Shown here piece by piece: positions 8,227 through 42,953 of a DNA stretch of 44,787 bases; position 1 is the first letter of the stretch, and the number at the start of each line of letters is the position of its first letter. Source of the stretch: Nitrospira sp. (lineage in GTDB: Bacteria > Nitrospirota > Nitrospiria > Nitrospirales > Nitrospiraceae); assembly GCA_024998625.1 (NCBI GenBank), contig JACOEL010000027.1, positions 1 to 44,787 on the forward strand. Reading direction: 5' to 3'. The notes under the pieces were generated by a model. It was not told where the DNA came from. It was given only the letters and a program-made list of their open reading frames with translations, and made no database searches. The position numbers and the translations under genes are program-made.

Positions 8227-8252
8227 CATGTCCATTGTGAACACGCTTTAAA

Positions 8253-9620: not shown

Positions 9621-9718
9621 TCCGTATCACCATTATGTTTAGCCGTGGAGGCTTGGGTTGGCGACACAGGTGCGTCCTTCCACGATAGACTCGCTCGCGT
9701 GACTCTTTCGGCGCGTGA

Positions 9719-10906: not shown

Positions 10907-10932
10907 GATAGCCTCAGCACTGAACTGTCCGC

Positions 10933-12090: not shown

Positions 12091-12225
12091 ACGCAGGTGC
12101 GGCATGCAATAACTTGCCACTCTACCCACTCGAGCACTTGAAGCCGAGCAGCCTTGGCGTACATACTAAACGGATTTTGAGATAGTGAAACGCGCGTCAT
12201 CCGGCGATAGGTTAGCGTCGGCGAG

Positions 12226-13898: not shown

Positions 13899-13902
13899 GC
13901 GC

Positions 13903-14877: not shown

Positions 14878-14894
14878 GGGGTCCGTTCTTTCTT

Positions 14895-16780: not shown

Positions 16781-16951
16781 TTTAGCATCTGGATCCTGCC
16801 GACCACATACCGGTGGTATCTCTTGGTCGATGGGGTCTCCATCTCCCCTGGGCATGGTCCTAGGGCTGGATTCGGCCCTCGAAGACAATGTATTCTTTCC
16901 CGCCGGAATCAGAAGCCGACTCCGCAGGGGTTGGTTCAAGCGGGATAGACG

Positions 16952-18922: not shown

Positions 18923-18923
18923 T

Positions 18924-20642: not shown

Positions 20643-20730
20643 TCGTGCTGATTTCGCCCTCGTTTGACTGAGATGATGAATTTGGATTAGAACCTACAGT
20701 CGTTATCCACAGGCGTGGACTGTCTAGCCT

Positions 20731-23331: not shown

Positions 23332-23337
23332 GAAGAA

Positions 23338-23401
23338 GTGAAGCGTGAAGAATCCTCGCTAACGACAATTCACGAACGACGAAATACGAGATACGCTTCA
23401 C
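23338..23401. repeat. Short inverted repeat between export and co-polymerase genes
   Basis: GTGAAGCGT (23338-23346) is repeated in inverted orientation as ACGCTTCAC (23393-23401), enclosing an AC-rich interior. It fills most of the 88-base gap between the SLBB and Wzz-like genes. It may be a remnant intergenic repeat or a weak transcript structure. No T-tract follows it. Confidence 0.4.
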
Positions 23402-23419
23402 GACTAACGGCGTAAGCAA

Positions 23420-27864: not shown

Positions 27865-29568
27865 ATGAAAATCTGGCAGCGCTGTTTGTTGGTTATGTTC
27901 GCGCTAGTGGCGATATTGGGAGGGGTGGCTTACGCCCAGGCTCCCAGTGCGCCCCCCGTGGAGTTCCCTTATACCGGGAACCGTACGGCGGTATGGATCG
28001 TCGCTCAACTCCACATTCTTTTTGCAGGATTCATTCTCGGGGCCCCGATTTTCGTTGTGATCTCCGAATGGTTGGGGTATCGCAAGCAGGATCCGCGCTA
28101 TGACCGGCTGGCGAAAGAGGTCACCAAGGTCACGGTCATTCTCTACAGCATGACGGCATTGACGGGCGGTCTCTTTATCTTCGTGCTGCTCGCAACCTAT
28201 CCGCAGTTCACAACCTGGCTCATCAATCACTTCTTCTTGATCTTTGCGGTGGTGTATCCGCTGCTGTTTATCGGCGAGACCATCGTCCTCTACATGTATT
28301 TTTATACCTGGGATGCGTGGAAGGGTGAGAAGAAGGCGCGTCATATCGCGCTGGGCGTGTTGTTGAATCTGATCGGATCGATCACGTTGTTCGTGATCGA
28401 CGCTCCGACCTCCTTTATGAATACGCCAGTGAGGGCGGAAGGTATCTCGCCGGCCGAGTTTTTGGCCACCGCATCCCTGTGGGATAAGGTCTTCAACTAC
28501 AGCTGGATGCCGCTCAATTTGCACCGTCTGGTGGGGAACGTCACGTTCGGTGGATTTGTGGCGGGGCTGATCGCGGCCTACATGTTCATGGGGGCCAAGA
28601 AGGACGAAGAGCGCGCGTACTACGATTGGATGGGCTTTGTCGGCAACATGATCGGAGTGGGCGCCCTGTTATTCCTTCCGTTCATGGGCTATTTGCTGGC
28701 GTATGAGCTCTGCGATTACGATGCCTCCATCTGTCCGTACATGATGGCCGACCAGCTCTCGATGTTCTTTGAGATGCAGGGCGCCATGATCGGTCTTATC
28801 TTTCTGGCCAGCAACTACTATATCTGGCTGAGCATGAAGCGGATCGAGGGTGTCGAGCGAGTCAGGATGACGGTGATCGCTCCGATCGTGATGGTATTGC
28901 TGCCGATCGTTATGACGAAGGTTCTGACCGACTATCCTGTTCCTGATGCGACCTCGCTGGCATTCCTTCTGCCGCTTTTGTTGGCGCCGGTCATTCTTGG
29001 GCGCTTTATTCCTCTAACGGTATCGTCCAGCACGGTCATCAAGGTCGGCTTCCTGATGGTCGTCGTCGGAAATGCAATCTGGATGACGCCGCATGGTTTT
29101 GTGCCCACTGGGGCCAAGCTGGTGGCGGAGTTGGAATTACCGTCCGATTGGAACTTCCTTGCACTGATGCCGGCGAAGAACTCCGCCGCGTTCACGTTGG
29201 TCTTTGTGACGGTAGTGAACTACGTCATCTATAACCGTGCGGTCTCTCAGGGGACGATTGTGTGGGGCAAGATCGATTTCGCCTCTCAGTTCGTCCTGGT
29301 CTTCCTGGCGTTCAGCGCGATTTGGACCATGGGTCTGATGGGCGCGGTGCGATCGCTGCTGCGGAAGTACTTTCATGCATACAACCTGTTGCCGGACTTC
29401 ACCGCCGAGTCCTTTACGCCGACGCTTTCCTACTCGGCCTGGTGGATCACCGGTATTACCATCGTTTTTTACGCAGTCGTCAGCTTTGCCATCATCGTGA
29501 CATTGCGCCCCTCGGATTCAAAGGGTCATGCACACGAGGGAAGCCCTGTTCCGGCAGGAGCTAAGTAG
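27865..29568 (+). CDS. Cytochrome bd-like oxidase subunit I, divergent copy 1
   Basis: This 567-residue protein has a cleavable signal-like N-terminus (...GGVAYAQAP) and about thirteen membrane helices. The CydA-like core is visible: QLHILFAGFILG with His50 (haem b595-type position), FIGETIVLYMYFYTWD with Glu138, and NLHRLVGNVTFGGF with His220 (low-spin haem position). The GRQPW motif and Q-loop of true quinol oxidases are not found; WMTPH stands at 406-410 where that region is expected, and I cannot see the usual axial Met. No CydB follows. It probably binds b/d-type haems but may not be a quinol oxidase. GAGGAGGAG lies upstream of ATG 27865. Confidence 0.82.
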   Translation: MKIWQRCLLVMFALVAILGGVAYAQAPSAPPVEFPYTGNRTAVWIVAQLHILFAGFILGAPIFVVISEWLGYRKQDPRYDRLAKEVTKVTVILYSMTALTGGLFIFVLLATYPQFTTWLINHFFLIFAVVYPLLFIGETIVLYMYFYTWDAWKGEKKARHIALGVLLNLIGSITLFVIDAPTSFMNTPVRAEGISPAEFLATASLWDKVFNYSWMPLNLHRLVGNVTFGGFVAGLIAAYMFMGAKKDEERAYYDWMGFVGNMIGVGALLFLPFMGYLLAYELCDYDASICPYMMADQLSMFFEMQGAMIGLIFLASNYYIWLSMKRIEGVERVRMTVIAPIVMVLLPIVMTKVLTDYPVPDATSLAFLLPLLLAPVILGRFIPLTVSSSTVIKVGFLMVVVGNAIWMTPHGFVPTGAKLVAELELPSDWNFLALMPAKNSAAFTLVFVTVVNYVIYNRAVSQGTIVWGKIDFASQFVLVFLAFSAIWTMGLMGAVRSLLRKYFHAYNLLPDFTAESFTPTLSYSAWWITGITIVFYAVVSFAIIVTLRPSDSKGHAHEGSPVPAGAK

Positions 29569-29607
29569 TCGGTCACCATACTGGAAGGGCGGTAAGCGAG
29601 GGTATTC

Positions 29608-30414
29608 ATGGGAAACGTGATTAAGAAGCTGGTAGTGGGAATCGTGGTCGGAGGGATCCTGTTCGGTGCGACCAATGCGCTGGGTTTTCCCTTTGTTTTT
29701 CAGGCGCTCTTCTTTGGTTATGCCATGTTGGGTGCCATCGTATTCATGATTCTCGATTTTCCGACACTGAAGCCTTTCGGAGGCGTGAAAGCCGTCGGGG
29801 CCTTGCTCGTGTTCTATGCCATCCTCTCCGTGGTGTACATCGCCGGCGCATCGATGTGGCCGCAGTACGATCCCGAAGACGAGAAGGGCAAGATCGAAAA
29901 GATCTTGAAACCCAAGCGTGAGCATTACGAGGCTGGCAAAGTCGAGGTTCTATTGCAGCGCGCCAAGGCGCTCGATGAAAAGGCCAAAGAGCTGACCGCG
30001 CGGTTGCAGGCCCTAGGCGCTGCGCAGGCTCCGGCGGATCAAAAGGCCGGTGGAGAGGCTGCGCCGACGGCGACGACAGCCGCTGCGGGTGGTGATATCG
30101 CCAAGCTCGGTGAAGAGCAATGGCAGCTGCAGGAATGTTACAACTGCCACAAGTTGAACGGTGAAGGTGGGAAAAAGCGCGGTCCTGAATTGGACAATAT
30201 CGGCAACCTCCTACCTGCTGCGGAAATTGCCCGGAAGATTCTCGATCCCAAGAGCTACAAGGCGGAAGGCTTTGAGCAGGAGTACGAGAAGGGGAAAATG
30301 CCCGACAAGTACAAGGACCTGATGGAGCCGAAGGATGTGGAAGCTTTGGCCGCCTGGTTGGCTGGTTACAAGAACGCTTCGGTCAACACGCCGAAGCCGA
30401 TCAAGATGAAGTGA
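29608..30414 (+). CDS. Membrane-anchored monohaem cytochrome c with coiled-coil linker
   Basis: This 268-residue protein has three N-terminal hydrophobic segments (about 7-25, 33-50, 62-82), then a charged helical/coiled-coil stretch with LLQRAKALDEKAKELTARLQ, an Ala/Pro/Thr-rich linker (about 138-162) and a C-terminal cytochrome domain with CYNCH (Cys177, Cys180, His181) and GGKKRGPELDNIG. A candidate sixth ligand is Met in KGKMPD. The haem domain is thus held on a flexible stalk, fitting a mobile electron shuttle inside a larger complex. It starts 39 bases after the bd-like gene, and its stop overlaps the Rieske gene's upstream frame. Confidence 0.85.
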   Translation: MGNVIKKLVVGIVVGGILFGATNALGFPFVFQALFFGYAMLGAIVFMILDFPTLKPFGGVKAVGALLVFYAILSVVYIAGASMWPQYDPEDEKGKIEKILKPKREHYEAGKVEVLLQRAKALDEKAKELTARLQALGAAQAPADQKAGGEAAPTATTAAAGGDIAKLGEEQWQLQECYNCHKLNGEGGKKRGPELDNIGNLLPAAEIARKILDPKSYKAEGFEQEYEKGKMPDKYKDLMEPKDVEALAAWLAGYKNASVNTPKPIKMK

Positions 30415-30419
30415 GCATC

Positions 30420-31358
30420 ATGCAGCCGAAACTGAAATCCAAAGTTCGATGTACGGACGGTGAAGTCGGGGAGGTGCGCCGGGTCATTATGGACCCGCTC
30501 TCCCACGAAATTAGCCATATCGTGGTCGGCACAGGCGCGGCGGATTCGATCGAGCGCCAGGTCCCCATGGGGCATGTGCAAGAAGTGACCGAAGAGGTCG
30601 TGACGCTTCGCGGCACCGCGGTCGAGTACGCGACACTTCCGGCGTTTAATCGTGACGCATATGTGACCACTCATGAAGTGGAAATTGCTCATCTGGAAGA
30701 GCGCATCCATGTCACTCCGGGTGAAGTGCTGGTTCCCCTCCCGGAACTTGAGCGCAGCGTCAAGCGCCGCACTTTCTTCATGAACTTCACTCACGCCATC
30801 GGATTTCTCATTGGTCTGCCGATCGCATTTCCCGTGTTGCGATACTTGATGAAGCCGATGTATGCCCCGTTCGACAATCAATGGCTCAAGATCGGCAACT
30901 CCGGAAAAATTAAGCAGGATGACGTCGGCGTCCAGTTCAAGTACAAGCGGAAAATTAAAGAAGCCTACATGCCGGAGCAGGAAATCGACAAAAACGTCTG
31001 GGTTTTGAAGGCAACTCCCAAGGTGTTGGAGACGATCTATCAAGGCAAGGACATGGAGTTTCACGACGCGGCCGGAAAGCTTATCTGGACCAATAAGAAA
31101 GACGTGCCGTACATCGCGTATTCCGGCAAGTGTCCTCACCTGGGCTGCGGGTTCAAGTGGCGGACCCACAAAACCCTCGGGCAGGTCTTTCTGTGTCCCT
31201 GTCACTTGAGCATCTATGACGCAGCCGGCAAAGTCCTCGATGGGCCGGCTCCCCGCGCGTTGGATCCGCTCCCAATTAGAGTTACTGCAACGGGCGACAT
31301 CACCATTATCGATATGGAATTCAAGGCGGGCACGAAGGCCCAGGTTCGGATTGTCTAA
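30420..31358 (+). CDS. Rieske iron-sulfur protein with N-terminal PRC-barrel-like domain
   Basis: This is the electron-accepting subunit of a bc-type complex, here 312 residues. Residues 1-110 form a beta-rich module (KVRCTDGEVGEVRRVIMDP...EISHIVVGTGA) resembling PRC-barrel domains, absent from ordinary Rieske proteins. A transmembrane helix follows (about 119-140). The 2Fe-2S ligands are in CPHLGC (Cys238, His240) and CPCHLS (Cys259, His262), with Cys243 and Cys261 as the disulfide pair. Usual motifs are CTHLGC and CPCHGS, so Thr to Pro and Gly to Leu are notable changes next to the cluster. The ATG at 30420 is chosen; GTG 30411 overlaps the previous stop. It lies directly upstream of cytochrome b. 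Confidence 0.9.
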   Translation: MQPKLKSKVRCTDGEVGEVRRVIMDPLSHEISHIVVGTGAADSIERQVPMGHVQEVTEEVVTLRGTAVEYATLPAFNRDAYVTTHEVEIAHLEERIHVTPGEVLVPLPELERSVKRRTFFMNFTHAIGFLIGLPIAFPVLRYLMKPMYAPFDNQWLKIGNSGKIKQDDVGVQFKYKRKIKEAYMPEQEIDKNVWVLKATPKVLETIYQGKDMEFHDAAGKLIWTNKKDVPYIAYSGKCPHLGCGFKWRTHKTLGQVFLCPCHLSIYDAAGKVLDGPAPRALDPLPIRVTATGDITIIDMEFKAGTKAQVRIV

Positions 31359-32474
31359 ATGGATACGACTACGCAGCCGACGACCACTCAGCCCTCAGCC
31401 ATTGAAAAAGTCTTAGCCTTTGTCGACGAGCGCGTCGGGCTGAAGACTCTACAAGCCAAAATGCTCAACGAGCCCGTCCCCGGCGGGTCACGATGGGCCT
31501 ATGTATTTGGCTCCGTCCTGCTCTTTATCTTCATCATGCAGGCGGTCACTGGCATTCTGTTGATGTTCTATTACGTGCCGACCGCAGACCATGCCTATGC
31601 GAGCACCCAGTACATCATCCACTCGGTGGATTACGGTTGGTTCCTGCTGAGCTATCACTTCTGGGGCTCAACGGCAATGGTCGTGTGCGTGTTCGCTCAC
31701 ATGTCCCAAGTCTTTCTCTGGGGCGCCTACAAAAAACCGCGCGAACTCATCTGGTTGGTCGGTTTGGCCCTCTTCGGCATTGTCATGGGATTCGGGTTTA
31801 CTGGCTATCTGTTGCCGTGGGACCAGCGGGCCTACTGGGCCACAACGGTCGGCGTTGAGATCATGGACAAAACGCCGCTCCTCGGGGATTTCATGGCGCG
31901 CTTTCTGAAGGGCGGCGCGACACCAGGCCAGATGACGCTGAGTCGCTTTTTCGTCATCCACGTCATGGTCCTTCCGGCGGCTTTGATGGGTCTGGCGGGA
32001 CTCCATCTCTTCCTGTTCCGTAAAGCCGGCCCTGCCGGACCGTTCCGTGGCAGCGTGGAAGAAATTAAGGCCAAGACCGACTACTTCTTCCCCCGTCAAA
32101 TCTGGAAAGACATTGTCGGGATGGTGGCGGTCTTTCTGTGCATCTGTAGCCTCGCCTTCTGGGAGCCGATTGTGCTTCTCGAAGAGGCCACGCCAGATCC
32201 AGGGGATTACCATCCGGAGCCGGAATGGTACTTCCTCTTCCTATTCCAGCTGCTGCGGCTCAAAGTATTTGCCGGCGAGTTTGGGCAGTTCCTTGGTGCT
32301 ATCGCGCTGCCCGGCGCGTTCATGGCGTTGCTTGCCGCATTGCCCTTCATTGATCGTGATCCGGAACGGAATATATTCAAACGACCGATCGCCTTGATCG
32401 GATGGATTGTGGTCATGGCGAGCATTTTGATTTTCACCGTGGCGGCAATCATCAACCGCGAATTTCTGGAATAG
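31359..32474 (+). CDS. Cytochrome b of a bc-type complex (fused b6/subunit IV form)
   Basis: This 371-residue membrane protein has the two haem-ligand pairs His100/His114 (13 residues apart) and His201/His216 (14 apart, as in cytochrome b6). The quinol-oxidation motif PEWY is at 288-291, so the subunit-IV-like half is present in the same chain. No Cys matching the haem c-i site of plant b6 is evident. It would oxidise or reduce quinone together with the Rieske protein. ATG immediately follows the Rieske stop, with no intergenic base. Length is between b6 alone and full mitochondrial cytochrome b. Confidence 0.93.
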   Translation: MDTTTQPTTTQPSAIEKVLAFVDERVGLKTLQAKMLNEPVPGGSRWAYVFGSVLLFIFIMQAVTGILLMFYYVPTADHAYASTQYIIHSVDYGWFLLSYHFWGSTAMVVCVFAHMSQVFLWGAYKKPRELIWLVGLALFGIVMGFGFTGYLLPWDQRAYWATTVGVEIMDKTPLLGDFMARFLKGGATPGQMTLSRFFVIHVMVLPAALMGLAGLHLFLFRKAGPAGPFRGSVEEIKAKTDYFFPRQIWKDIVGMVAVFLCICSLAFWEPIVLLEEATPDPGDYHPEPEWYFLFLFQLLRLKVFAGEFGQFLGAIALPGAFMALLAALPFIDRDPERNIFKRPIALIGWIVVMASILIFTVAAIINREFLE

Positions 32475-32492
32475 GCGGAGGGGCTTGGGCAC

Positions 32493-33515
32493 ATGACTGG
32501 TCGAGAGACGATGTCGTCATTTAAATTGGGGCTTAGCATTCTCTGGCCGGCCTGCTGGACCGCCCTGCCGATCAAGATGGCGTTTGCCATGTTGTTTATG
32601 GCGATGGGGACGATCCATCTGGAGACGAAACTCGGCATTACCTTCCTGATGCTGCTCATGACTCCGGTCAGCGTCTTTGCATTCTTCGTGATCTCTCTAG
32701 GTGTCGGCTTCCATTTTGGAGAAGGGGCCGGACTGCCACTATTGTTCCTGCTCTGCATTCCCATCGACATTTGGTCGCTGGGCCTGGTTGCCCGAACCGT
32801 GTTTTTGGAACGCCTGCGGCTTGAGCCCCCTGCTTCATTGGGACTGGGACTGTGGGTCCGCTTCGCGGTCGCAGGGGCGATTTATCTTCCCTTCCTGTGG
32901 GTAGTGCAGGGCGGCGCGACCGATCTCGCTCGTTCAATCACGAAGTCCATTTTGGATATGGATATGCTCAAGGGGCTGCCGGTGGCTGAGCGAATCGGTC
33001 TGGAATTTACGGCCTGGGGCAGTGCGTCATTGGTGGTTCTCCTGGCGCTCACCTATGTCGGCCTTTTGATTCTTGGAAAGCTGGTTGAAGGGCGTGCTGC
33101 CGGTGCCCAACCGACTAGTGGCACTTACCAAGATCTCATCTCGCGCTGGGATATGATCCGCGTGCCCGCCGATCAAAGTTTGATGTTGACTGCCTTCACG
33201 GCCGCCGGCGCCGTATTGAGTATCCTATTCTGGGCCGTGCTTCCGGTGTCCACTCCACACCCGCACGAATGTTGTAAACCCGCGACCGAGACGGTCGTTC
33301 CGCCCTTTGATGCTCAAAAGTCGCTCTCAAAAGGAGAGAAGGCATTCAAGGACGCAGAGCTGAAGATTGCCGCGATCGAACAGCGAGCGGCAGAAGACGA
33401 AAAAGAGAAACAGAAGAGCGGTAAGGACAAAGCCGGTGTCAAGGATGGCGCTCCCAAGAGCGACGGTAAGCCTACGCAATCAACAGCCGGGAAACCGGCG
33501 GGAAGCGGCAAATGA
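32493..33515 (+). CDS. Multi-pass membrane protein of unknown function in the respiratory operon
   Basis: This 340-residue protein has about six to seven hydrophobic segments in residues 15-265, then a hydrophilic tail that is strongly Lys/Ala/Glu-rich (KDAELKIAAIEQRAAEDEKE, KDKAGVKDG...). A short HPHECC motif (about residue 258-263) follows the last helix; its His and Cys could bind a metal or haem, which is speculation. It has no CydB, cytochrome or quinone motif I recognise. GGAGGGG upstream supports the ATG at 32493. Position between cytochrome b and the second bd-like subunit suggests a structural membrane subunit of the same complex. Confidence 0.75.
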   Translation: MTGRETMSSFKLGLSILWPACWTALPIKMAFAMLFMAMGTIHLETKLGITFLMLLMTPVSVFAFFVISLGVGFHFGEGAGLPLLFLLCIPIDIWSLGLVARTVFLERLRLEPPASLGLGLWVRFAVAGAIYLPFLWVVQGGATDLARSITKSILDMDMLKGLPVAERIGLEFTAWGSASLVVLLALTYVGLLILGKLVEGRAAGAQPTSGTYQDLISRWDMIRVPADQSLMLTAFTAAGAVLSILFWAVLPVSTPHPHECCKPATETVVPPFDAQKSLSKGEKAFKDAELKIAAIEQRAAEDEKEKQKSGKDKAGVKDGAPKSDGKPTQSTAGKPAGSGK

Positions 33516-33543
33516 CATCATGGCGAATGACGAGGTGAGAACA

Positions 33544-35424
33544 ATGATGAACCAGGGTCAGATCGTCACCAATCACGGGCGCCAAATCGCAGGCCGTGTG
33601 GCCCTGTTGGCCGGATGTGCGGCATTACTTGCATGGGTGGGCCTGCCGGATATGGCTCTCGCTCAGGAAGCCGCCCCTCAGGCTCCGACCGCGTATAGGG
33701 ACCTTCCGTATGTAGGCAGTCGAAACCTTGTCTGGATCATCGCCCAGCTCCATTTGTTGCTCGCGGGCTTCGTGCTTGGCGTCCCGATCTTTGCCTGGTT
33801 GTGCGAAATCGTCGGTTGGAAGTCGGGCGATAAGCGCTACGACAAACTGGCGAAAGAGTTTACCAAGCTCCTGACCTCTTCATACGCCACAACCGCTCTG
33901 TTCGGCGGCATTCTGCTGTTCTTGCTGATCGGCTTCTATCCCAAGTTGATGGCCTATCTCACGGATATCTTTTTTCCCTCTTTTCTCGTCTACTGCTGTC
34001 TCTTCCTCGTGGAAACGGCCACGTTGTACCTCTACTGGTACGGTTGGGACGCGATGGCGGAGGGCAATGGCAAAAAGTTCCATATTTTCCTGGGGCTCCT
34101 GCTCAACGTCTTTGCGTTCTTCATCATGATCGTGCCGAACTCATGGGCGACATTCCAGGCCAGCCCCGTGGTGCTCGCCGAGGGCAGCGACTTCGCCCGG
34201 GCGTGGGCAGCGACGTGGAATCCGACCTGGTGGCCTGTGAACATCCACCGCTTGATCGCCAACGTGGTGCTCGGTGGGTACATTTGCGGCGCGTACGCCG
34301 GCATCCGGTATCTGTCCGCCAAAAGTCAGGAAGAGCGGTATCACTACGATTGGATGGGATACGTCGGGAATTTTATCGGCGTGTTTGGTCTCCTGCCCCT
34401 TCCGTTCGCTGGGTACTGGTTGATGCGGGAAATTTATCAGTACAACCAGCAAATGGGTATCACACTCATGGGCGGATTCCTCTCCTGGTTGTTCATTCTG
34501 CAGGCGATGTTGATCGGTGTGCTCTTCCTGGGCTCCAACTATTACTTCTGGCTCGGGATCACCCATCGAATACCAGGATCTGAAGGTCAGTATCGTAAGC
34601 CGATCATGGCCATGTTGATCATTCTTTTGCTGTGCCTGGCAGTGTGGATGACGCCGCATTCTCTGGTCGCCAGTTTGGAAGAAGCGCAGAAGATGGGTGG
34701 TACGCACCATCCCTTATTAGGCGTATTCGGGGTTATGTCGGCAAAGATGACGGTATCGAATCTCATGGTGCTCGTCACATTCATGAGTTTTATTATGTAT
34801 TGGCGCGCGGGCAAGGAAGACTCAGCCGGATGGGCTAAGGCTGCCAAGGCTCTCATGGGCGGGGTGCTCGGACTGGCTGGTCTTGCCGTGATCGTCCTTG
34901 GCGTGTGGGGATACTTTGTGCCGGCGATCATCCGCATCAACTACTTCTCGACTTCCCAGGTGGGTATCGTCATCTTCGTCATGTTGACCATTACGCCGTT
35001 GACCGCTCTGTTGCTGAAAAGCGCGAAGACCACCACGGAAATGGTGTGGGGGAAAATGCCGCCGCGGGCCGGGTATGCGTTGGTCCTGAATGCGGTCATG
35101 GTCATTCTGCTCATGACACTCATGGGATATGCACGTTCGTCCTCTCGCGTTCATTGGCATGTGTATGGCGTCATGCGCGACTCCTCGCAATATGCCTTCT
35201 CGCCGGCGCTTGGCTACGCGGCGGCTCTGATGGCGCTCAATACCTTCCTGTTCTGCATGTTGGTGGCATTCATATTCTGGGTGGCGACGATGGGCGACAA
35301 GGCCAAGGCTGCAGCCAGTAGCAAAGGGTCGGTAGAGCCCGGTGCGATTCCGGCGATGGCCGGCGGGTCGCCGGCGTTGGATGGGCGTGAGGCGGAGGCT
35401 TCTAAGGAACAACGTCCGGTCTGA
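33544..35424 (+). CDS. Cytochrome bd-like oxidase subunit I, divergent copy 2
   Basis: This 626-residue paralogue of the protein at 27865-29568 has a signal-like N-terminus ending in MALAQ and about fourteen membrane helices. Matching positions are His70 in QLHLLLAGFVLG, Glu157 in LVETATLYLYWYGWD, His235 in NIHRLIANVVLGGY and WMTPH at 369-373. As in copy 1, GRQPW is absent. The C-terminal region carries extra helices and a polar tail. ATG 33544 has GAGGTG at a suitable distance; ATG 33520 is an alternative. The two copies flank the Rieske/cytochrome b/unknown-subunit block, so they may have arisen by duplication and then specialised. Confidence 0.82.
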   Translation: MMNQGQIVTNHGRQIAGRVALLAGCAALLAWVGLPDMALAQEAAPQAPTAYRDLPYVGSRNLVWIIAQLHLLLAGFVLGVPIFAWLCEIVGWKSGDKRYDKLAKEFTKLLTSSYATTALFGGILLFLLIGFYPKLMAYLTDIFFPSFLVYCCLFLVETATLYLYWYGWDAMAEGNGKKFHIFLGLLLNVFAFFIMIVPNSWATFQASPVVLAEGSDFARAWAATWNPTWWPVNIHRLIANVVLGGYICGAYAGIRYLSAKSQEERYHYDWMGYVGNFIGVFGLLPLPFAGYWLMREIYQYNQQMGITLMGGFLSWLFILQAMLIGVLFLGSNYYFWLGITHRIPGSEGQYRKPIMAMLIILLLCLAVWMTPHSLVASLEEAQKMGGTHHPLLGVFGVMSAKMTVSNLMVLVTFMSFIMYWRAGKEDSAGWAKAAKALMGGVLGLAGLAVIVLGVWGYFVPAIIRINYFSTSQVGIVIFVMLTITPLTALLLKSAKTTTEMVWGKMPPRAGYALVLNAVMVILLMTLMGYARSSSRVHWHVYGVMRDSSQYAFSPALGYAAALMALNTFLFCMLVAFIFWVATMGDKAKAAASSKGSVEPGAIPAMAGGSPALDGREAEASKEQRPV

Positions 35425-35491
35425 TCGGGAAGATGATCTTCCCCCGGGTCACCAGGGGCGGGTCGTGATCATTATCCTTTGTTGAGGACTT

Positions 35492-36112
35492 ATGAGTGAA
35501 GTAGTCAAACTGCAGTTAATCGGTCTCTGTGTCATCGGTCTCGGAACAGTGATCCTCCTCTTCATCAAGGGGCAATTTCTTCGGGTCATCGGTTTCGTGG
35601 CCATCGTCTTGGGACTGTTTTCGTTGGTCGCTCTGGCTGTTCCCCAGATGGCATCACTGCCGCCAGCTGAAGAAAGCATCAATATCGCCGATATCAAGAC
35701 GCCGACGGATATGGCGACGATCGGGCAGAAGATATTCTTCAGCAAGGGCCAGTGTGCGCTCTGTCATTCCATAGGCCCGAGCGAGTCGGCTCGCTGTCCC
35801 GATCTCAAGGGGATCGGGGCCAAACTTTCCCGAGAGTTCATTTTTGAGAGCCTGACCGAGCCGCAAGCGTATCTCTATTTGGACTACCGGCACGAGGGAG
35901 TGCCGAAGGAGTACCCGGCGCGGATGCCGTATATCAATAAGAACCCCATCGGTCTGTCTAGGAACGAAATTCTATCGGTCATTGCGTTCCTGCAACAGAT
36001 GAGTGGAGAGCCGATCAGCGTCAGCCCCGGTGAATTGGATTTGCCACGGGCCACACCGGCCCCAGTCAAGGCGGCTGATACCGGCGCCTTGGCGATGGCG
36101 CAGGCTCGTTAG
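35492..36112 (+). CDS. Membrane-anchored monohaem cytochrome c
   Basis: This 206-residue protein has two N-terminal transmembrane helices (about 7-25 and 30-50) and a C-terminal haem domain with CALCH (Cys88, Cys91, His92). The sequence around SESARCPDLKGIG and ARMPYINKN supplies the distal part; Met in ARMPY is the probable sixth ligand. An extra Cys in SARCPD is unusual for a small cytochrome c. It resembles the haem-bearing subunits that partner nitrite oxidoreductase or bc-type complexes, but a specific family is not recognised. It starts 67 bases after the second bd-like gene. Confidence 0.85.
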   Translation: MSEVVKLQLIGLCVIGLGTVILLFIKGQFLRVIGFVAIVLGLFSLVALAVPQMASLPPAEESINIADIKTPTDMATIGQKIFFSKGQCALCHSIGPSESARCPDLKGIGAKLSREFIFESLTEPQAYLYLDYRHEGVPKEYPARMPYINKNPIGLSRNEILSVIAFLQQMSGEPISVSPGELDLPRATPAPVKAADTGALAMAQAR

Positions 36113-36139
36113 TCGTCGGTGAAGTAGAGGAGGGTGGTT

Positions 36140-36865
36140 ATGGGAGGCGTACTCGTTCGACCGATTATTTTGACGATCTGCATTTATCTGTTCTTGAAGT
36201 TTATTGTCCCGAATCTGCCGCATTCCGCGCCGTTGCCTTCGAGCTTGATCTTCCTCTATTTGATGCTGACGACCGCCGGGATTGTCATCTTTGCCACGCT
36301 CAGCGGAGCATCGAAGGATGCGTTTTTCGGCCCGATCCTGCGCTTCCTTACCGGAGACGGCGGGGGGGCACTGAGCAGCGCCCGGTATCTCGTGCTGGCG
36401 TTATTCCCACTCTTGGTAGGCTGGCAGACCTACGGAAGCACAGCATCGAGCGATGCACCGCCCGCCGAAAATCGAACCATTCACCCCGCTCCTCCGGGGG
36501 AATACACGGGCCTGTCGAATCCTGTTCCGAAGACCCCTGAGAATATCATGTACGGCAAAGGCCTCTACGCTTCACGCTGCGCGCCCTGTCACGGCAATTT
36601 CGACGGGAAGGGGTTTGCCGCGCCGGGCTTCACGCCGCCGCCGGCTAACTTTAAGGATCCGACGACAATCGCCATGCTGCAGGAAAGCTATCTCTTCTGG
36701 CGGATCAAGAAGGGAGGGGTGGGGCTCCCTGTCGAGGGGATGCCATGGAAAACGGCTATGCCGCGTTGGGAGCTCGAACTGTCGGATGAAGACATCTGGA
36801 AAGTCATTATGGGCGAATACGATGGGGCCGGACAGAAACCCAGAACGTGGGACGAGTCCGAGTAA
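36140..36865 (+). CDS. Membrane-anchored monohaem cytochrome c
   Basis: This 241-residue protein has three N-terminal hydrophobic segments (about 8-25, 34-53, 81-98), then a periplasmic haem domain with CAPCH (Cys147, Cys150, His151). The segment LFWRIKKGGVGLPVEGMPWKTAMPRW matches the first cytochrome of the operon (FWRISEGVPNTKMKPW), so these two are likely related. The sixth ligand is probably one of the two Met in this stretch. GAGGAGGGTGG upstream of ATG 36140 supports this start over GTG 36134. It ends 40 bases before the NxrC-like gene. Confidence 0.88.
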   Translation: MGGVLVRPIILTICIYLFLKFIVPNLPHSAPLPSSLIFLYLMLTTAGIVIFATLSGASKDAFFGPILRFLTGDGGGALSSARYLVLALFPLLVGWQTYGSTASSDAPPAENRTIHPAPPGEYTGLSNPVPKTPENIMYGKGLYASRCAPCHGNFDGKGFAAPGFTPPPANFKDPTTIAMLQESYLFWRIKKGGVGLPVEGMPWKTAMPRWELELSDEDIWKVIMGEYDGAGQKPRTWDESE

Positions 36866-36905
36866 TTTCTCCGATCAGGGATTGCTGAGCAATTAAGGGG
36901 AGCGT

Positions 36906-37733
36906 ATGGCACGAGTGAGGAGACCAGGAACGAGGTGGTGGGTTGGGGCCGTCGGCCTTGTGGGGTTGTGCGTGGCCGCCGAAGTCCAGCCGGCCTATAG
37001 CCAGCAGAGCGTGTCGGTTCGCGCCGCGCTCGTGAAAGGATCCCTTCCGACAGATGATCCGACTGCGGCGGCCTGGGCGACCGCGGCGGTGTCGGAATTC
37101 CCAATGTCTCCTCAGGTGCATTGGCCGGTTCGTATCACCGAGGTCACCGCCAAGAGCGTCAAGGTTCGGGGACTGCATGACGGTACGACCGTGGCCATCA
37201 TGCTGGAGTATACCGATCCATCGGAAGACCCCGAGGATGCCGCAGCGCTCGAATTCATGGTCGGCGATACCAAGGCCCATTTTGCCCATGGCCAACCTAT
37301 GGCGCAGGTCGAAGGCGGCCCGGTCAATATCTGGTACTGGAAGAACAAGGATGGGAAAGGCTCGGATCTGGGCGCCAAGGGCTTTGGCACGCTGAAACCA
37401 CATGCGCACCAGGATGTGAAAGCCAAAGGTGTCTACCAGGGCGGGGTCTGGAAAGTCGTCTTCTCTCGTGCCTTAAACACCGAGCATGTGGCTGAGGATA
37501 CACAATTCCAGCCCGGGCAGTTTGCGAACATCGCGTTTGCTATTTGGGACGGCAAGAAGATGGAAACCGGCCAGCCGAAGGAAAAAGGTTCTGAAAAGGC
37601 CATTTCATCCTGGTGGTATTTCCGGGCCGATGCGCCGCCGGACTATTCGCCGTACATGTATGCATTACTCGCGGTGGCCTTAGCGCTGGGCTTTGAGTTG
37701 GTCCTCGTGAGACGTTTAAAGAAAGGGTCGTGA
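36906..37733 (+). CDS. Ethylbenzene-dehydrogenase gamma/NxrC-like haem b protein, C-terminally anchored
   Basis: This 275-residue protein has a signal peptide (WWVGAVGLVGLCVAAEVQPA), a periplasmic domain with the EB_dh pattern (SLPTDDPTAAAWATA; PMSPQVHWPV; VAIMLEYTDPSEDP; AHGQPMAQVEGGPVNIWYWK; KVVFSRALNT...QPGQFANIAFAIWDG), and a C-terminal transmembrane helix (YMYALLAVALALGFELVLV). In EbdC, NarI-replacing gamma subunits and NxrC this fold holds one haem b through Met and Lys; which residues do so here cannot be settled by eye. Such proteins usually partner a molybdopterin enzyme, but none is encoded here, so it may serve the bc/bd-like complex or accept electrons from nitrite oxidoreductase. 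Stop overlaps the next gene's upstream frame. Confidence 0.85.
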   Translation: MARVRRPGTRWWVGAVGLVGLCVAAEVQPAYSQQSVSVRAALVKGSLPTDDPTAAAWATAAVSEFPMSPQVHWPVRITEVTAKSVKVRGLHDGTTVAIMLEYTDPSEDPEDAAALEFMVGDTKAHFAHGQPMAQVEGGPVNIWYWKNKDGKGSDLGAKGFGTLKPHAHQDVKAKGVYQGGVWKVVFSRALNTEHVAEDTQFQPGQFANIAFAIWDGKKMETGQPKEKGSEKAISSWWYFRADAPPDYSPYMYALLAVALALGFELVLVRRLKKGS

Positions 37734-37735
37734 GC

Positions 37736-38749
37736 ATGAGGGCGTGGCGAAGAATACGCGTATTTGGAGCGGTCGCAGTGGTGGTCGGACTCTCGGGCCT
37801 CATTGGGGCCGGGGGTTGTTCGATGTTTCAGAACGAACAATCCGCGAAGGGCAAGAAGCTCTATGCTCACTATTGCATGCATTGCCACGGAGAAACCGGA
37901 AAACAGAACGAAGGGTTCAATTGGTCGTCCATGACGGACCCGAAGCCCAAGGACCTGTCCAATAAAGACGAAATGGGCACCTTCAAGGATGAGGAAATCT
38001 TTAATACCATTTCTCGCGACATGAAGGACACGGGACCAGGCGGGGAAAAGATCGGTGATGACGAATTTGCCGTGCCGACCATGCCGACCTTCAAATACAC
38101 CCTGTCGGAGGAAGAGATCTGGGGAATCGTCGGGTATGTGCGCTCCCTCCATGGGAAGAAGTTAGAATTCAATGTGGAAGGTCGGAAGAAAGAGCTCCAG
38201 GAGGCTCAGCAAGCGGCCGACCAGAAATTTAAGGAAGCCGAGCGGCTCGCCCAGGAAGCGGAGAAGAAGGCCAGCGACGAGGCGGACAAGAAGGGCGTGG
38301 AAGTCGACGACAACGCCTACGCCAAGGAAATGCAGGCGATGGGACAAGCCAAAAAGGAACTGGATCAAGCGACGGCAGCCGTGACGAATTTCACCACACG
38401 GCCAGGGAAGGGCGTCAATATTGCCCGTCCTGATTTGAACATGAAGCCCGATGCGGCTGCGAAACTCGTGGAAGTCGGCAAGCAGTTGTATGTGACCAAG
38501 TACGGGTGTAATGGATGTCACAAGATCGGCGACGAGGGTGGCAAGGTCGGGCCTGCGCTGGATCGTGCAGGATATCGCCTGAACCCAACCTGGGTCTACC
38601 GGTGGCTGCGTAACCCGCAAGCCATGAAGCCCGATACGCGTATGCCGAGCTTGGGATTGAATGATGCGGATGCGAAGGCTGTGGCGCTCTATCTGAAAAC
38701 CCTCCGTGCTCCGAAGCCCGATCAGCCGCTCGGGAAAGTGGGCGAATAG
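37736..38749 (+). CDS. Dihaem cytochrome c lipoprotein with coiled-coil spacer
   Basis: This 337-residue protein has a basic start, hydrophobic signal and lipobox ending GAGGC (Cys28). The first haem domain has CMHCH (Cys47, Cys50, His51). A long charged coiled coil (about 150-212, rich in K/E/A) separates it from the second domain with CNGCH (Cys258, Cys261, His262). The coiled coil could place the haems far apart or serve as an assembly handle. The second domain keeps GKVGPALDRAG...RMPSLGL, typical of class I cytochromes. ATG 37736 has AAAGGG upstream. It is the last gene of the operon, and its stop lies five bases from the stop of the convergent ubiA-like gene. Confidence 0.88.
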   Translation: MRAWRRIRVFGAVAVVVGLSGLIGAGGCSMFQNEQSAKGKKLYAHYCMHCHGETGKQNEGFNWSSMTDPKPKDLSNKDEMGTFKDEEIFNTISRDMKDTGPGGEKIGDDEFAVPTMPTFKYTLSEEEIWGIVGYVRSLHGKKLEFNVEGRKKELQEAQQAADQKFKEAERLAQEAEKKASDEADKKGVEVDDNAYAKEMQAMGQAKKELDQATAAVTNFTTRPGKGVNIARPDLNMKPDAAAKLVEVGKQLYVTKYGCNGCHKIGDEGGKVGPALDRAGYRLNPTWVYRWLRNPQAMKPDTRMPSLGLNDADAKAVALYLKTLRAPKPDQPLGKVGE

Positions 38750-38753
38750 TCGG

Positions 38754-39668
38754 CTAGGGAGTGTGATGAAGGGTCCCGATCCAGATGCCGGCGAGGATTG
38801 CCACGCCGGAATAGACATGCTGTTTAAACATGGCAAAAGCGACTTGCGGAGTGACGGGCGCTTGTAACCGTCGCACCTGCCACAGGAAGACTCCAGTCGG
38901 CAGGGCCAACATTAGATAAAACCCCATCCGGAGGCCGGACAACTGTCCGGCCACTACCAGGCACAGAACCATCCCTCCAAGGAATAGTCCGACGGCTGCC
39001 GGGATAGCCTCGCCGAAGAGAAGGGCAGACGACTTCACTCCGATGCGGCGATCATCCTCGCGGTCCTGCAGTGCATAGATCGTATCGTACGCGATGGCCC
39101 AGCAGATCGTCGCGGTAAAGAGCCACCATGCCGGTGCTTCGATCGAGCCGCGCGAGGCAGCCCACGCCATCACCGCTCCCCAGCCGAAGGCAATGCCCAG
39201 CACCCCTTGCGGAATCTGAATCCAACGTTTGCTGAAAGGATAGATCGCGGCCAGCAAGAGCGCGATCGGACTCAAAAGTATCGTCAAAGGATTGAGCGTG
39301 ATCACCAGAGCGGCCGCGATCACTGCCAGGCAAAGTGCGACGAGCAGCGCATGTCTGGGCGCAAGGCGGCCTGCAGCGAGCGGTCGAGTGCGTGTGCGTG
39401 CGACGTGTTTGTCGAAATTGCGGTCAGCCAGATCGTTGAACACCACCCCGAGACTGCGCATCACGAAGGCACCGAGGGTAAAGACACTCAATAGCCAGAT
39501 CGGTGGACGGCCCTGGTTGGCCAGGACTAACGACCAGAGGCTGGGCAACAATAAGAGCCAGGTGCCGGATTGATTCCGCAGTCGGATCAGGTCGGCCACC
39601 GCGCTCCAAGACCAAGCGGGTGTTGGGCGGTGAGTTGAAGGACTCGCAGCGTTCACGCGCTGGACCAT
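38754..39668 (-). CDS. ubiA: UbiA-family prenyltransferase (4-hydroxybenzoate polyprenyltransferase-like)
   Basis: This 304-residue integral membrane enzyme has about eight to nine helices and both aspartate-rich motifs: NDLADRNFDKHVARTRTRPL, with the N-D-X3-D-X3-D type motif, and YALQDREDDRRIGVKS. It would attach an isoprenoid chain to an aromatic ring in quinone synthesis. The exact substrate (4-hydroxybenzoate or a related ring) is not decided by sequence. The start at 39668 gives the normal family length; the frame is open for 53 more codons without support. It converges on the respiratory operon, so quinone synthesis next to a quinone-using complex is a sensible context, though transcribed apart. 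Confidence 0.88.
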   Translation of the reverse strand: MVQRVNAASPSTHRPTPAWSWSAVADLIRLRNQSGTWLLLLPSLWSLVLANQGRPPIWLLSVFTLGAFVMRSLGVVFNDLADRNFDKHVARTRTRPLAAGRLAPRHALLVALCLAVIAAALVITLNPLTILLSPIALLLAAIYPFSKRWIQIPQGVLGIAFGWGAVMAWAASRGSIEAPAWWLFTATICWAIAYDTIYALQDREDDRRIGVKSSALLFGEAIPAAVGLFLGGMVLCLVVAGQLSGLRMGFYLMLALPTGVFLWQVRRLQAPVTPQVAFAMFKQHVYSGVAILAGIWIGTLHHTP

Positions 39669-39708
39669 AACCGAGCACAGAAGGACTGTCAACGCGGCAT
39701 CGCGCCGG

Positions 39709-39738
39709 TTGTTATGTCTTTGTGAGATTGGGTATAAC
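39709..39738 (+). promoter_or_regulatory. Probable sigma70-type promoter for the caspase-like lipoprotein
   Basis: TTGTTA (39709-39714) and TATAAC (39733-39738) are 18 bases apart. Transcription would start near 39745, which rules in the ATG at 39760 or GTG at 39784 and rules out a start at 39709. The region lies between two divergently transcribed genes (start codons at 39668 and 39760). Confidence 0.5.
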
Positions 39739-39759
39739 GAAACTATTGTGCAGCCATCT

Positions 39760-41727
39760 ATGTGCCCAGGGATAGTAACAAGTGTGCGGCAGCTATCGAG
39801 GTGTCCTCTCGCCTTTCTGCTGTTCACGGTGTGGATGTCGAGCGGATGCCAATTCTTCGGTCAGCGGAGCAGCCTGCCCACTCATTACAATCTTCCGCTC
39901 AGCGTCCAGCTTCGGATGGATCACAGTATCGCTGCGGCGTCGCTGGATTATCGCGATGCCTGTGGCCAGGCCCTCACCCTGCCCATTCGTGATGGGTTAG
40001 AAACACAATTGAAAAAGCGCATGGGGCAGGTCTTCGAACGTGTACATCTTGAGCCAGGTCCATCGACTGGTGCGGTGGATGGCGTGGTGGATACCGCGTT
40101 AGGATTCCGTCAGGCAGACCTGTTCATTCCTCGTAAGGCCAATAAATCCTATCCTGCGACGGTAACGTTGGGGATGGAGTTTACGTATACCGATGACCAC
40201 GGCGCAGTTCTCGTGAGCAAGAAGTTGCAGAGCGCTGCGACCGGAGAGGTCGAGGCGAGGGCGGAAACCTGCGCTATCAGCGGCCTCGACACAGTCGCGG
40301 AAGAGGCGGCCGCCAAGCTTGTGGAAGGTATGGCGCAACAGCTTGGGACTGCCATCAAAATTCGCGAGCAGGCCCAATTCAGAAAAAGCGGCGATAGGGG
40401 AACCATGCAGGCTGCTCCCGTGCCGCCTGCGACACCGGCAGCGGCTCCATTGGCGGCCACACCGGTGGGTCCAGTAGCTCCAGTGCCACCTGCTGTTGGC
40501 TCTGTGCCGCAGGCTGCAGCCCCGGCTTCGGCTATCCCATCTGGGGCGACGCAACTCTCGTTCCGGACCATCATCCGAGACGATAACCAGAATCATGTCC
40601 TGGAGCAACGTGAGTCGTTCAGTGTGGAGTTCGAAGTCAAGAACGAAGGGGCCGTAGTTGCGGAGGGAGTCGAGGTCGAATTGAGCGGTCATGCCGCGAT
40701 CGTCGGAGGCCTTAAGTCGCCGGTCTCGTTGGGGACGCTGCAGCCGGGTGAAGTCCGCCGCGTGGCCGTTGACGGCAAGGTGGGTGCCGTAGCCGACATC
40801 GAGCAGGCCGAGCTGATCTGTGCCCTGCGAGCGTCCTCCAACGTCCTGCTCCCGTCGGCCAAGAAGTTTTTTGTCGCGATACGTCCTGATGCGGGTGCCG
40901 CTGTGGAGGTGTTATCGGTAGATGTGGACCAACTCCCGAGTAGGAATGGAAAATCGGCGCAGCCGAACAGTGTCGGGATCGCGATCGGTGTCGGCGCGTT
41001 CCGGGATCCGGCCGTGCCGGCGGTGAAGTTTGCCGCGCATGATGCTGACGTCATGGGTGGGTACTTCAAGACCGTTTTAGGCGTTCCTCCGCAAAAGGTG
41101 AAGGTGTTGTCCGACGCGAAAGCGCTCAAGGATGACTTGATCGAAGTGTTTGAGCAATGGTTGCCGAAGCAGGGCAGTCCGCAGGTCACCGCGTATATTT
41201 ATGTCTCCGGTCGGGCTATGGTGGATCAAGAAACCGGGATTGTCTCTTTGCTGCCCTACGATGGAACGCGAGCCGGTGCCTCCCGGACGTTTTCCCTCGC
41301 CCGGCTTCAGCGGGCTCTGACCAAGGCTTCCGTGAAGCAAGCCGTGTTGATGCTGGATCTCTCCCTGGAGCCGTTGTCCGGTTCCGGTCCGGGCCAGGTG
41401 GTCTCTCCGCGATGGGTCCAGCAGGATTCAATCGGGGAGCCAGACCGGCTCATGCTGATGATCGGAAACTCCGGCCTACAGGAGGCGCAAGCCTATCAGC
41501 CGGGACAACATGGGTTGTTCACATATTTTCTATTGAAAGGGTTGCGCGGAGCAGCCGATCTCGACAAGAGCGGGACTGTGTTTTCCGGGGAACTCTGCGA
41601 ATACGTGCATGCTCAGGTCGATGCCGTGACGCGAGGAGCGACGGGGGGTGGCCAGCCCACACTCTGCCTGCCCATGGGTGGTCGGCAACCGGTGTTAACC
41701 GGGATACCTCTGAGTAAGATCCGCTGA
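39760..41727 (+). CDS. Lipoprotein with catalytically inactive caspase-like (C14) domain
   Basis: The protein has about 655 residues. A signal segment with lipobox MSSGC (Cys30) suggests membrane attachment. Parts in order: an N-terminal domain with paired cysteines; a Pro/Ala-rich linker; a beta domain in the style of CARDB (FRTIIRDDNQNHVLEQRESF...VEFEVKNEGAVVAEGVEVEL); and a C-terminal caspase-like domain (SVGIAIGVGAFRDPAVPAV...KVLSDAKALKDDL). In active relatives the strand ends YxSGHG and is followed later by DACxSG. Here the same places read IYVSGRAM and LMLDLSLEP, so both catalytic His and Cys are absent. It is therefore a pseudoprotease, perhaps a scaffold or sensor. The Prepilin-like GTG 39784 start is an alternative. 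Next gene follows at once. Confidence 0.8.
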   Translation: MCPGIVTSVRQLSRCPLAFLLFTVWMSSGCQFFGQRSSLPTHYNLPLSVQLRMDHSIAAASLDYRDACGQALTLPIRDGLETQLKKRMGQVFERVHLEPGPSTGAVDGVVDTALGFRQADLFIPRKANKSYPATVTLGMEFTYTDDHGAVLVSKKLQSAATGEVEARAETCAISGLDTVAEEAAAKLVEGMAQQLGTAIKIREQAQFRKSGDRGTMQAAPVPPATPAAAPLAATPVGPVAPVPPAVGSVPQAAAPASAIPSGATQLSFRTIIRDDNQNHVLEQRESFSVEFEVKNEGAVVAEGVEVELSGHAAIVGGLKSPVSLGTLQPGEVRRVAVDGKVGAVADIEQAELICALRASSNVLLPSAKKFFVAIRPDAGAAVEVLSVDVDQLPSRNGKSAQPNSVGIAIGVGAFRDPAVPAVKFAAHDADVMGGYFKTVLGVPPQKVKVLSDAKALKDDLIEVFEQWLPKQGSPQVTAYIYVSGRAMVDQETGIVSLLPYDGTRAGASRTFSLARLQRALTKASVKQAVLMLDLSLEPLSGSGPGQVVSPRWVQQDSIGEPDRLMLMIGNSGLQEAQAYQPGQHGLFTYFLLKGLRGAADLDKSGTVFSGELCEYVHAQVDAVTRGATGGGQPTLCLPMGGRQPVLTGIPLSKIR

Positions 41728-41729: not shown

Positions 41730-42953
41730 GTGGCACGTTACTTCCGGAAGGCGGTGGTGATGCTGGCCGGACGAACAGGATGGCCATGGGCCCGTCGAAT
41801 CCTCTTCCTGGCATGTCTGTGGCTAGCCAGCGTCAGTGTTTCGATTATCTTTTTGGAATGGGTTACAGGTTACCTCTATGAGCGCACGCCCTTCTCGAAT
41901 GGAAAGCGGATCATCGATCTGTACCTGGGGCAACAGCCGACCGTTCGCTCTGATGTAAAAGGTGAAAGCGCGTCACTCGCACCCCACCCCTACTTACTCT
42001 ATACGCACCTGCCCAACTTGACGACGGACGGGTATCAACAGACCAATTCGCTCGGTTATCGGAATAGAGAATTCACGGTTGCCAAACCACCGGACACCAT
42101 GCGAATTCTGGTGCTGGGGGGATCGACGACCTTCATGTGGCCGTTTGTGAAGAACCCGGCGGATACGTGGGTGGCCCGCCTCGAGGCTAAACTCCAGACG
42201 ATTTCGAAGAAGACGGTTCAGGTCGTCAATGGGGGATTGAACTACGGAACCAGCGCCGAGGCGCTCGCCGGGTATGTGTTTCGGCATCGTTTTCTTCAAC
42301 CCGATATCGTGATCTATCATGGCGGCGGCAACGATGTATTGCCGCTTTTTTTGGGGAATTACACTCCCGAATATACGCACTTCAGACGGTCTGGGGCGGG
42401 TGAGAGTCCACGCCCAGGAGAGAAATTTTTGCTGCGGCACAGCAACACAGCAAAATACGCCTACTCCAGGTGGCTGGAGCCGATAGGTGCAGTCGTGGTG
42501 ACGGAGCCGTTTTGGGAAGTGGATCCGAACACCGCGCTCGAACGGGTACGAACTCAGGCGCCGGAAGGGTTCCGACGAAATCTCGACATGCTTGTGTCTT
42601 CGAGTCAACAGGCAGGCTCGGCCGTGGTGCTATTCGGTTTCTTGCAGGCGAGAAAGCAGAATCTCAGCAAGAATGCAGGAGCCTTCAAAGGGTACGAAGA
42701 GGCTTTAATCCTTGGGCTCGAAAAGAACTATGACGTCATGCGGGAAATCGCGGCCCGGTACCAGACGCCCTTTGTCATTCCGTCTCAGGACCGATTCAAG
42801 GACGAATGGTTTCAGGATAATTGTCATCTCTCTCCGGAGGGCGAGGAGGTCAAGGCCCAGATTATGTTCGAGCAGTTACGAGATCATCCTCGATTTCGAA
42901 GCGTCTCTGTAACGGGAGGCGTTTCAATCATTGACAGTGCTTCCATCCACTGA
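41730..42953 (+). CDS. Membrane-anchored SGNH/GDSL-type hydrolase
   Basis: This 407-residue protein has one N-terminal transmembrane helix (about 25-45, FLACLWLASVSVSIIFLEWV) and a periplasmic SGNH-fold domain. Block I is LGGSTTF (Ser nucleophile), block III is GGGNDV (Gly/Asn oxyanion), and block V is DNCHLSPEGEE (Asp and His). Such anchored SGNH enzymes act as carbohydrate esterases or O-acetyl transfer partners, or alter lipids; substrate is not evident. GTG 41730 follows the previous stop by two bases; ATG 41760 is a shorter option still including the helix. It is probably co-transcribed with the caspase-like lipoprotein. Confidence 0.82.
   Translation: MARYFRKAVVMLAGRTGWPWARRILFLACLWLASVSVSIIFLEWVTGYLYERTPFSNGKRIIDLYLGQQPTVRSDVKGESASLAPHPYLLYTHLPNLTTDGYQQTNSLGYRNREFTVAKPPDTMRILVLGGSTTFMWPFVKNPADTWVARLEAKLQTISKKTVQVVNGGLNYGTSAEALAGYVFRHRFLQPDIVIYHGGGNDVLPLFLGNYTPEYTHFRRSGAGESPRPGEKFLLRHSNTAKYAYSRWLEPIGAVVVTEPFWEVDPNTALERVRTQAPEGFRRNLDMLVSSSQQAGSAVVLFGFLQARKQNLSKNAGAFKGYEEALILGLEKNYDVMREIAARYQTPFVIPSQDRFKDEWFQDNCHLSPEGEEVKAQIMFEQLRDHPRFRSVSVTGGVSIIDSASIH

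Follow-up and report, generated by a model that had tools for sequence, protein, structure and literature searches.

On sequence comparison and structure models, there is about an even chance that the protein encoded at nt 39,760–41,727 of the window (the whole stretch of Nitrospira sp. DNA analysed, 44,787 nt) is a lipid-anchored, probably outer-membrane and periplasm-facing pseudo-orthocaspase that binds or scaffolds rather than cuts. Binding is considered probable because the catalytic dyad has been lost throughout the family, yet the presumed pocket acids and a place beside respiratory genes have been kept.

Domain organization of the caspase-like lipoprotein

The ORF lies on the forward strand, with an ATG at nt 39,760 (the open frame extends further upstream) and a stop codon ending at nt 41,727; the product has 655 amino acids and no internal stop was present, as expected from the original prediction of a long, intact frame. 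Orthologues sharing 61% to 93% identity nearly end to end were found in 22 of the 29 genomes of the genus Nitrospira, and that of Candidatus Nitrospira defluvii was 85% to 87% identical. Two more genomes had pieces, one in G022 and two in G008; the former and one of the latter ended at a contig end. In G002, G006, G012, and G015, the contig ended within the cytochrome c gene that lies upstream, or 286 to 1091 bases past it. In G024, which is 89% complete, neither the caspase-lipoprotein gene nor that cytochrome c gene was seen. No true absence of the gene was found among the 29 genomes. G007 (84% complete) possessed two full-length orthologues (G007:C63 and G007:C19), which shared 91% and 63% identity with the window protein and reflect either a duplication or a mixed bin.

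A lipoprotein signal peptide ending in MSSG-Cys30 was read by eye at nt 39,760–39,849, and the lipobox Cys30 was present in all 105 orthologue rows not gapped at this position. It is followed by an N-terminal domain resembling outer-membrane lipoproteins (residues 30–212, nt 39,847–40,395), which, modelled alone with AF2, had a pLDDT of 88.4. The model matched the DUF330 protein 2iqi (Z 11.6, 149 aligned residues, 3.6 Å), DUF330 being the PqiC family, as well as CsgG (Z 10.7), PelC (10.5), and LptE (9.6); the same match list held ribosome hibernation factors, surely unrelated, at about 8.5. CsgG, PelC, and LptE are outer-membrane-associated lipoproteins. This domain had no Pfam match at E ≤ 1 and so no sequence-family match of the PqiC/LptE/CsgG type; from the model, we infer a fold of that type. 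The residue following Cys30 was Gln and not Asp. In E. coli, a residue other than Asp after the lipobox Cys permits sorting to the outer membrane, and by this rule Gln would allow that location. The modelled N-terminal fold suggests an outer-membrane lipoprotein. The pair Cys68/Cys171 in this domain was conserved in 105 of 106 rows with residues in both columns, and Cys613 and Cys636, near the C-terminus, were both present in 104 of 115 rows; both pairs would be in keeping with an oxidising periplasm. A few members of the orthologue family, hereafter family A, seemingly had no N-terminal domain (L087, L089, and L180).

A Pro/Ala-rich linker with low pLDDT (residues 213–262, nt 40,396–40,545) leads to a CARDB-like beta-sandwich (residues 263–376, nt 40,546–40,887), for which the AF2 model consisted entirely of strands except for one short helix. 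The Pfam CARDB profile (PF07705) matched below its cut-off of 22.7 bits, with E 0.063 and 13.9 bits in the window protein and E 2.3e-4 and 21.8 bits in the orthologue L080. Just N-terminal to the last domain, a V-D-x-x-P motif was observed (residues 389–393, nt 40,924–40,938), in which V389, D390, and P393 were invariant in all 26 rows of the orthologue set A1; by eye, the motif is common to many intact caspase relatives.

Residues 399–653 (nt 40,954–41,718) are predicted from the AF2 model (76 sequences, mean pLDDT 78.9 for the whole protein) to adopt a caspase fold of clan CD. Structural comparison of this region gave matches to MALT1 paracaspase (3uo8; Z 21.9, 213 aligned residues, 2.7 Å), Arabidopsis metacaspase 4 (6w8r; Z 19.6), and Geobacter GSU0716 (3bij; Z 18.2), bearing out the C14 caspase-like fold that had been proposed from the sequence. 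Pfam Peptidase_C14 (PF00656) had no match to the protein at E ≤ 1, nor did a PF00656 search of its own genome recover it, and among the genus orthologues, G010:C2 alone just exceeded the gathering cut-off (21.9 versus 21.4 bits). The NCBIfam profile caspase_w_EACC1 matched under its cut-off (E 4.9e-7, 29.5 versus 140 bits). Sequence searches of solved structures, also with the A2 profile, gave nothing better than weak matches to unrelated proteins, with E values of 0.35 or above.

Loss of the dyad and retention of the presumed pocket acids

In an alignment to intact relatives that was gap-free at both motifs, Arg485 (codon CGG, nt 41,212–41,214, within VSGRAMVD) fell on the catalytic His column and Ser535 (codon TCC, nt 41,362–41,364, within LMLDLSLE) on the catalytic Cys column. 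These columns held H and C in the 27 intact rows. L010 of the own genome (DTCHS), which read 'HH' in two of the comparisons through a one-residue alignment shift, was counted as intact. The intact rows came from 30 genomes picked from 196 with a match, plus the own genome and G010, whose homologue L060 read YSGHGAP and LDSCFAG at the same columns. Both dyad residues are substituted, as in pseudo-orthocaspases, and the His-Cys dyad of an active C14 peptidase is missing, in agreement with the original prediction that both catalytic residues had gone.

The substitutions also proved to be fixed among relatives, a point that had been singled out for checking. Among 115 distinct orthologues chosen by provenance, regardless of residue, the His column contained R in 113, L in one, and K in one, and the Cys column S in 102, T in 11, and A in two. 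A second sample consisted of named loci, the best 80 of the 99 relatives retrieved with the single pattern G[QRK]HGLFTYxL, which is distant from both catalytic sites; here Arg occupied the His column in 80 of 80, and the Cys column was Ser in 73, Thr in six, and Ala in one. The codons in the Arg485 column were CGN in 107 and AGR in six rows, all six Arg codons being used. Codon and Cys/His conservation counts were made on 115 rows picked for having Arg, Lys, or Leu in the His column; since choice by provenance alone also gave 115 rows with identical numbers, the circularity of that pick is removed. Fixation throughout the family makes loss of the dyad more than a chance event.

An alternative His-Cys dyad, named beforehand as the observation that would count against such a loss, was not found by column conservation across the domain. 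The sole conserved His of the caspase domain, H584, was invariant and looks structural, since it was shared by 23 of the 27 intact rows. C613 (105/115) and C636 (110/115) were both located late in the domain and absent from some orthologues, and the C636 column was Leu or Ile in all 21 intact rows with a residue there.

In eight within-genus comparisons, the caspase domain had a dN/dS of 0.12 to 0.26, versus 0.35 to 0.79 for the linker of the same protein (residues 211–262), which served as an internal control. It is thus not freely drifting, and by these sequence comparisons is under purifying selection, consistent with the earlier proposal that the loss was tolerated or selected. It was not the most constrained of the folded domains; CARDB was tighter (0.03 to 0.11 in seven comparisons, one further being undefined), and the N-terminal domain (0.10 to 0.21) was also tighter in most comparisons.

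In metacaspases, the acids of the specificity pocket correspond to Asp95 and Asp211 of TbMC2, and pseudo-orthocaspases retain both (Klemencic et al. 2019, PMC6426788). Mapped by motif with the TbMC2 numbering of this one paper, the presumed S1-pocket acids of the window protein are Asp428 (nt 41,041–41,043), the first residue of an Asp-Ala motif, and Asp533 (nt 41,356–41,358), two residues before the Cys position. With the pocket assigned in this way, D428 was kept in every row with a residue there, that is, 113/113 in family A, 26/26 in the paralogous group B, 3/3 in the order-level relatives f3, and 27/27 in intact homologues. At position 533, family A had D in 103 and E in 12 of 115 rows, and Asp was found in 26/26 rows of B, 3/3 of f3, and 27/27 intact rows. 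In f2, another group of the same order, in which the alignment around D428 is uncertain, Asp occupied the first-acid position in two of the 10 rows not gapped at that site, and the Asp-Ala motif was found in 0/10. D533 alone is weak evidence, because nine of 11 f2 rows keep this Asp though the first acid is mostly gone. The contrast with f2 suggests, as far as aligned residues can tell, that the pocket is in use in A, B, and f3.

Seven caspase homologues were found in the own genome, four of which retain the dyad (three on contig C37 and one on C15), so that the intact paralogue called for by the original prediction does exist. Another, L002 (G000:C5:102791-104533), is a full-length pseudo-caspase paralogue of group B, 28% to 31% identical to the window protein, with Gln/Thr at the catalytic positions; its neighbours were cytochrome c and carbamoyltransferase genes, as in five other genus genomes inspected and in Nitrospira defluvii. 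From the homologue list, B-type matches were read in 29 of 29 genus genomes, and 26 distinct B rows had Gln in 24 and His in two at the His column, and Thr in 23, Ala in two, and Asn in one at the Cys column. A further own-genome homologue with TPRs, L003 (G000:C11:63627-64415), kept the His and had Asn in place of Cys; PF00656 matches similar to it recur across the genus. L003 looks like a separate loss, although its branch is long.

The f3 relatives had Asn or Ser at the His column and Ser or Ala at the Cys column. In f2, 11 anchor-bearing proteins with a caspase domain (L237/L251 being the same gene, as are L239/L245) had Gln in six and His in five at the former, and Pro in nine, Gln in one, and a gap in one at the latter. 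In five other f2 genomes (G321, G361, G395, G408, and G440), the anchor protein comprised the N-terminal domain and CARDB with no caspase domain, in open frames of 367 to 374 codons (L218, L240, L241, L242, and L244). Separate intact homologues were present in some f2 genomes (L238, L246, and L247), including G395 and G440; G450 had no match, and L243 (G421) had the N-terminal domain alone. Intact caspase relatives are present elsewhere in the phylum, and the homologues outside the order, from the 30 picked genomes, typically read YYAGHGAPD...DSCFSG, all with both residues. By eye, intact Nitrospirota homologues (L192-L199, L201-L203, L208, and G284:C8) had CARDB, ankyrin-like, WD40-like, or TPR-like partners; several lay on one contig in one genome, and many had VDxxP before the domain.

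In a tree of 62 representatives out of 175 rows, A, B, f2, and f3 each formed one clade with support of 100/99 or better, and the four together were set apart from the remaining rows by a weakly supported branch (67/62). Parsimony on the tree rows required two changes for presence of the Cys and three for the His. A clade of A plus f3 was not rejected (p-AU 0.35), the placement of f3 not being fixed by the tree. The simplest reading compatible with these data would be that the Cys was lost first and once, and that the His was replaced later in differing ways.

Respiratory genes in the genomic neighbourhood

A UbiA-type prenyltransferase gene (TIGR01474 above cut-off) lies divergently on the reverse strand, its longest ORF spanning nt 38,754–39,827; since this overlaps the caspase ORF, the true start is probably further in. 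Among the named loci with room (from the best 80 of 99 relatives), ubiA adjoined the gene divergently in 72 of 72, 71 by script and L125, which has a second ubiA copy beside the gene, by inspection. A cytochrome c gene was upstream of ubiA in 64 of 65 such loci, and both neighbours were present in all three f3 loci.

By profile matches, nt 27,865–38,749 on the forward strand form a respiratory cluster with the order Cyt_bd_oxida_I, cytochrome c, Rieske, cytochrome b, an ORF of no assigned family, Cyt_bd_oxida_I, two cytochromes c, an EB_dh/DMSO-reductase-gamma-like protein, and a cytochrome c with two matched stretches. Of these, the ORF that separates cytochrome b from the second of the bd-like oxidase genes (340 aa, nt 32,493–33,515) matched neither Pfam at E ≤ 0.001 nor NCBIfam at E ≤ 1e-5. 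The product of nt 33,367–35,424 is a putative homologue of the NIDE0901-like bd-like oxidase, described as probably serving Nitrospirales as their main terminal oxidase (PMC12342949, PMC10579370). Upstream of the respiratory cluster, nt 6964–24,646 contain a polysaccharide/capsule cluster (Wzy, glycosyltransferases, Wzi, SLBB export protein, and Wzz).

On the downstream side, an SGNH hydrolase gene (PF13472; nt 41,730–42,953, forward strand) starts two bases past the stop codon of the caspase-lipoprotein gene. This gene was directly downstream in four of 60 named loci with room (from the best 80 of 99 relatives) and also in L109 and L115, which had less room; all such loci were in the window's genus, and no SGNH gene was found within 5 kb in Nitrospira defluvii (L111). 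The partnership that had been proposed from the window did not survive this comparison, and synteny rules out the SGNH hydrolase as a conserved partner.

Possible roles and related proteins

In the proposed mechanism, the anchor and the CARDB module would keep the catalytically dead domain positioned in the periplasm, and the acidic pocket would bind a partner's basic (Arg/Lys) peptide or tail and leave it uncleaved, the lipoprotein acting as an adaptor or as an assembly/quality-control factor. The retained pocket acids favour such a binding role, and the constant place beside ubiA and the cytochrome/bd-like oxidase cluster makes the respiratory machinery the first candidate partner; this synteny shows linkage, not proof of partnership. 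The sensor or scaffold role put forward in the original prediction was a guess. In a bolder form, which is quite improbable, catalysis would have been lost in the Nitrospirales ancestor and the domain fixed in an outer-membrane role, as a receptor or assembly factor serving the respiratory chain, with the acidic pocket as a basic-peptide site and, in family A, Arg485 as a substrate mimic within the pocket that gates binding.

The constraint on the caspase domain may also be explained by structural needs, with no binding in the pocket. A domain that only extends the anchor/CARDB lipoprotein structurally, and is on its way out, would account for the missing pocket motif in f2, the five f2 genomes whose anchor protein has no caspase domain, and the lower constraint on the domain than on CARDB in family A, but fits poorly with a dN/dS far below that of the linker (0.12 to 0.26), with Arg485 in 113 of 115 rows, and with the finding of no true gene loss in the genus; it is considered unlikely. 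Somewhat less likely still is that the protein acts on the intact caspase homologues of its own cell as a decoy or inhibitor, for which some dead caspase homologues in mammals provide a precedent (PMC3501461). Potential targets are widespread, with PF00656 matches in 29 of 29 genus genomes and a homologue of the intact own-genome C15 protein (YSGHGG/DSCHSG) in 28 of 29, its dyad verified in the own genome alone; however, the C15-type protein had no signal peptide by eye and may thus occupy another compartment, the WD40-type intact homologues of the own genome were matched in three of 28 other genus genomes (G002, G008, and G018) when searched by similarity to the window protein, and L060, the nearest intact lipoprotein type, was found by such similarity in G010 only in the genus list.

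A residual enzyme, in which Ser535 or another nucleophile works with a different base, is very improbable: Ser or Thr occupies the Cys position in 113 of 115 rows and H584 is invariant, but two rows have Ala there, 113 of 115 have Arg in place of the His, H584 also occurs in 23 of 27 intact rows, and C613 and C636 are absent from some orthologues. Least probable of all is a cell-surface sensor cooperating with the SGNH hydrolase, which the two-base spacing of the genes in the window would favour, but adjacency in four of 60 loci of a single genus, and no SGNH gene within 5 kb in Nitrospira defluvii, argue against it.

MALT1 and metacaspases are proteases. The Nitrospira protein shares the caspase fold with MALT1 (3uo8), metacaspase 4 (6w8r), and GSU0716 (3bij), but unlike MALT1 and the metacaspases it has no dyad and bears a lipoprotein-type anchor domain. 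With DUF330/PqiC, LptE, CsgG, and PelC it shares the fold of the N-terminal domain and the lipid anchor, whereas its N-terminal domain is fused to CARDB and a pseudo-caspase. L060, from G010 of the same genus, resembles it in having a lipobox, a VDxxP-like stretch, a caspase domain 32% to 34% identical to that of the window protein, and an N-terminal part that the family profile matched partially, but differs in its intact dyad and in having no matched CARDB module.

Pseudo-orthocaspases as a class are already known. Those of bacteria are likewise p20 homologues with a substituted dyad, occurring in clades; they retain the pocket acids, here presumed to be D428 and D533, and some are fused to scaffold or other domains, as is the protein here; 90% of them are in Alphaproteobacteria and Cyanobacteria (PMC6426788). 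The dyads given in the part of that paper drawn on here are YS, YA, FS, QC, HA, YN, YG, and HG, the Arg-Ser of Nitrospira not being among these, and 'Nitrospir' is absent from its main text. Dyad conservation of 57% was reported for Nitrospirae metacaspases by Asplund-Samuelsson et al. 2012 (PMC3501461), and the part of that study used here does not describe the dyad-substituted ones as to family, synteny, architecture, or the residues in place of the dyad. Among the matches listed in a search of open-licence PMC literature, no paper on a Nitrospira pseudo-caspase lipoprotein was found. The Arg-Ser type fixed across Nitrospiraceae, its lipoprotein-type anchor, the synteny with the respiratory cluster, and the graded decay in f2 were not found in that literature and appear to be new.

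Nitrospira drive nitrite oxidation and comammox. To our knowledge, little is established about the periplasmic assembly of their unusual cytochrome/bd-like oxidase chain, and a conserved dead protease beside respiratory genes is a concrete candidate factor for assembly of this chain. The order also offers a natural series, from intact proteins through dead ones with and without the pocket acids to those with the domain absent, which lets one ask what a pseudoprotease retains after catalysis has been lost.
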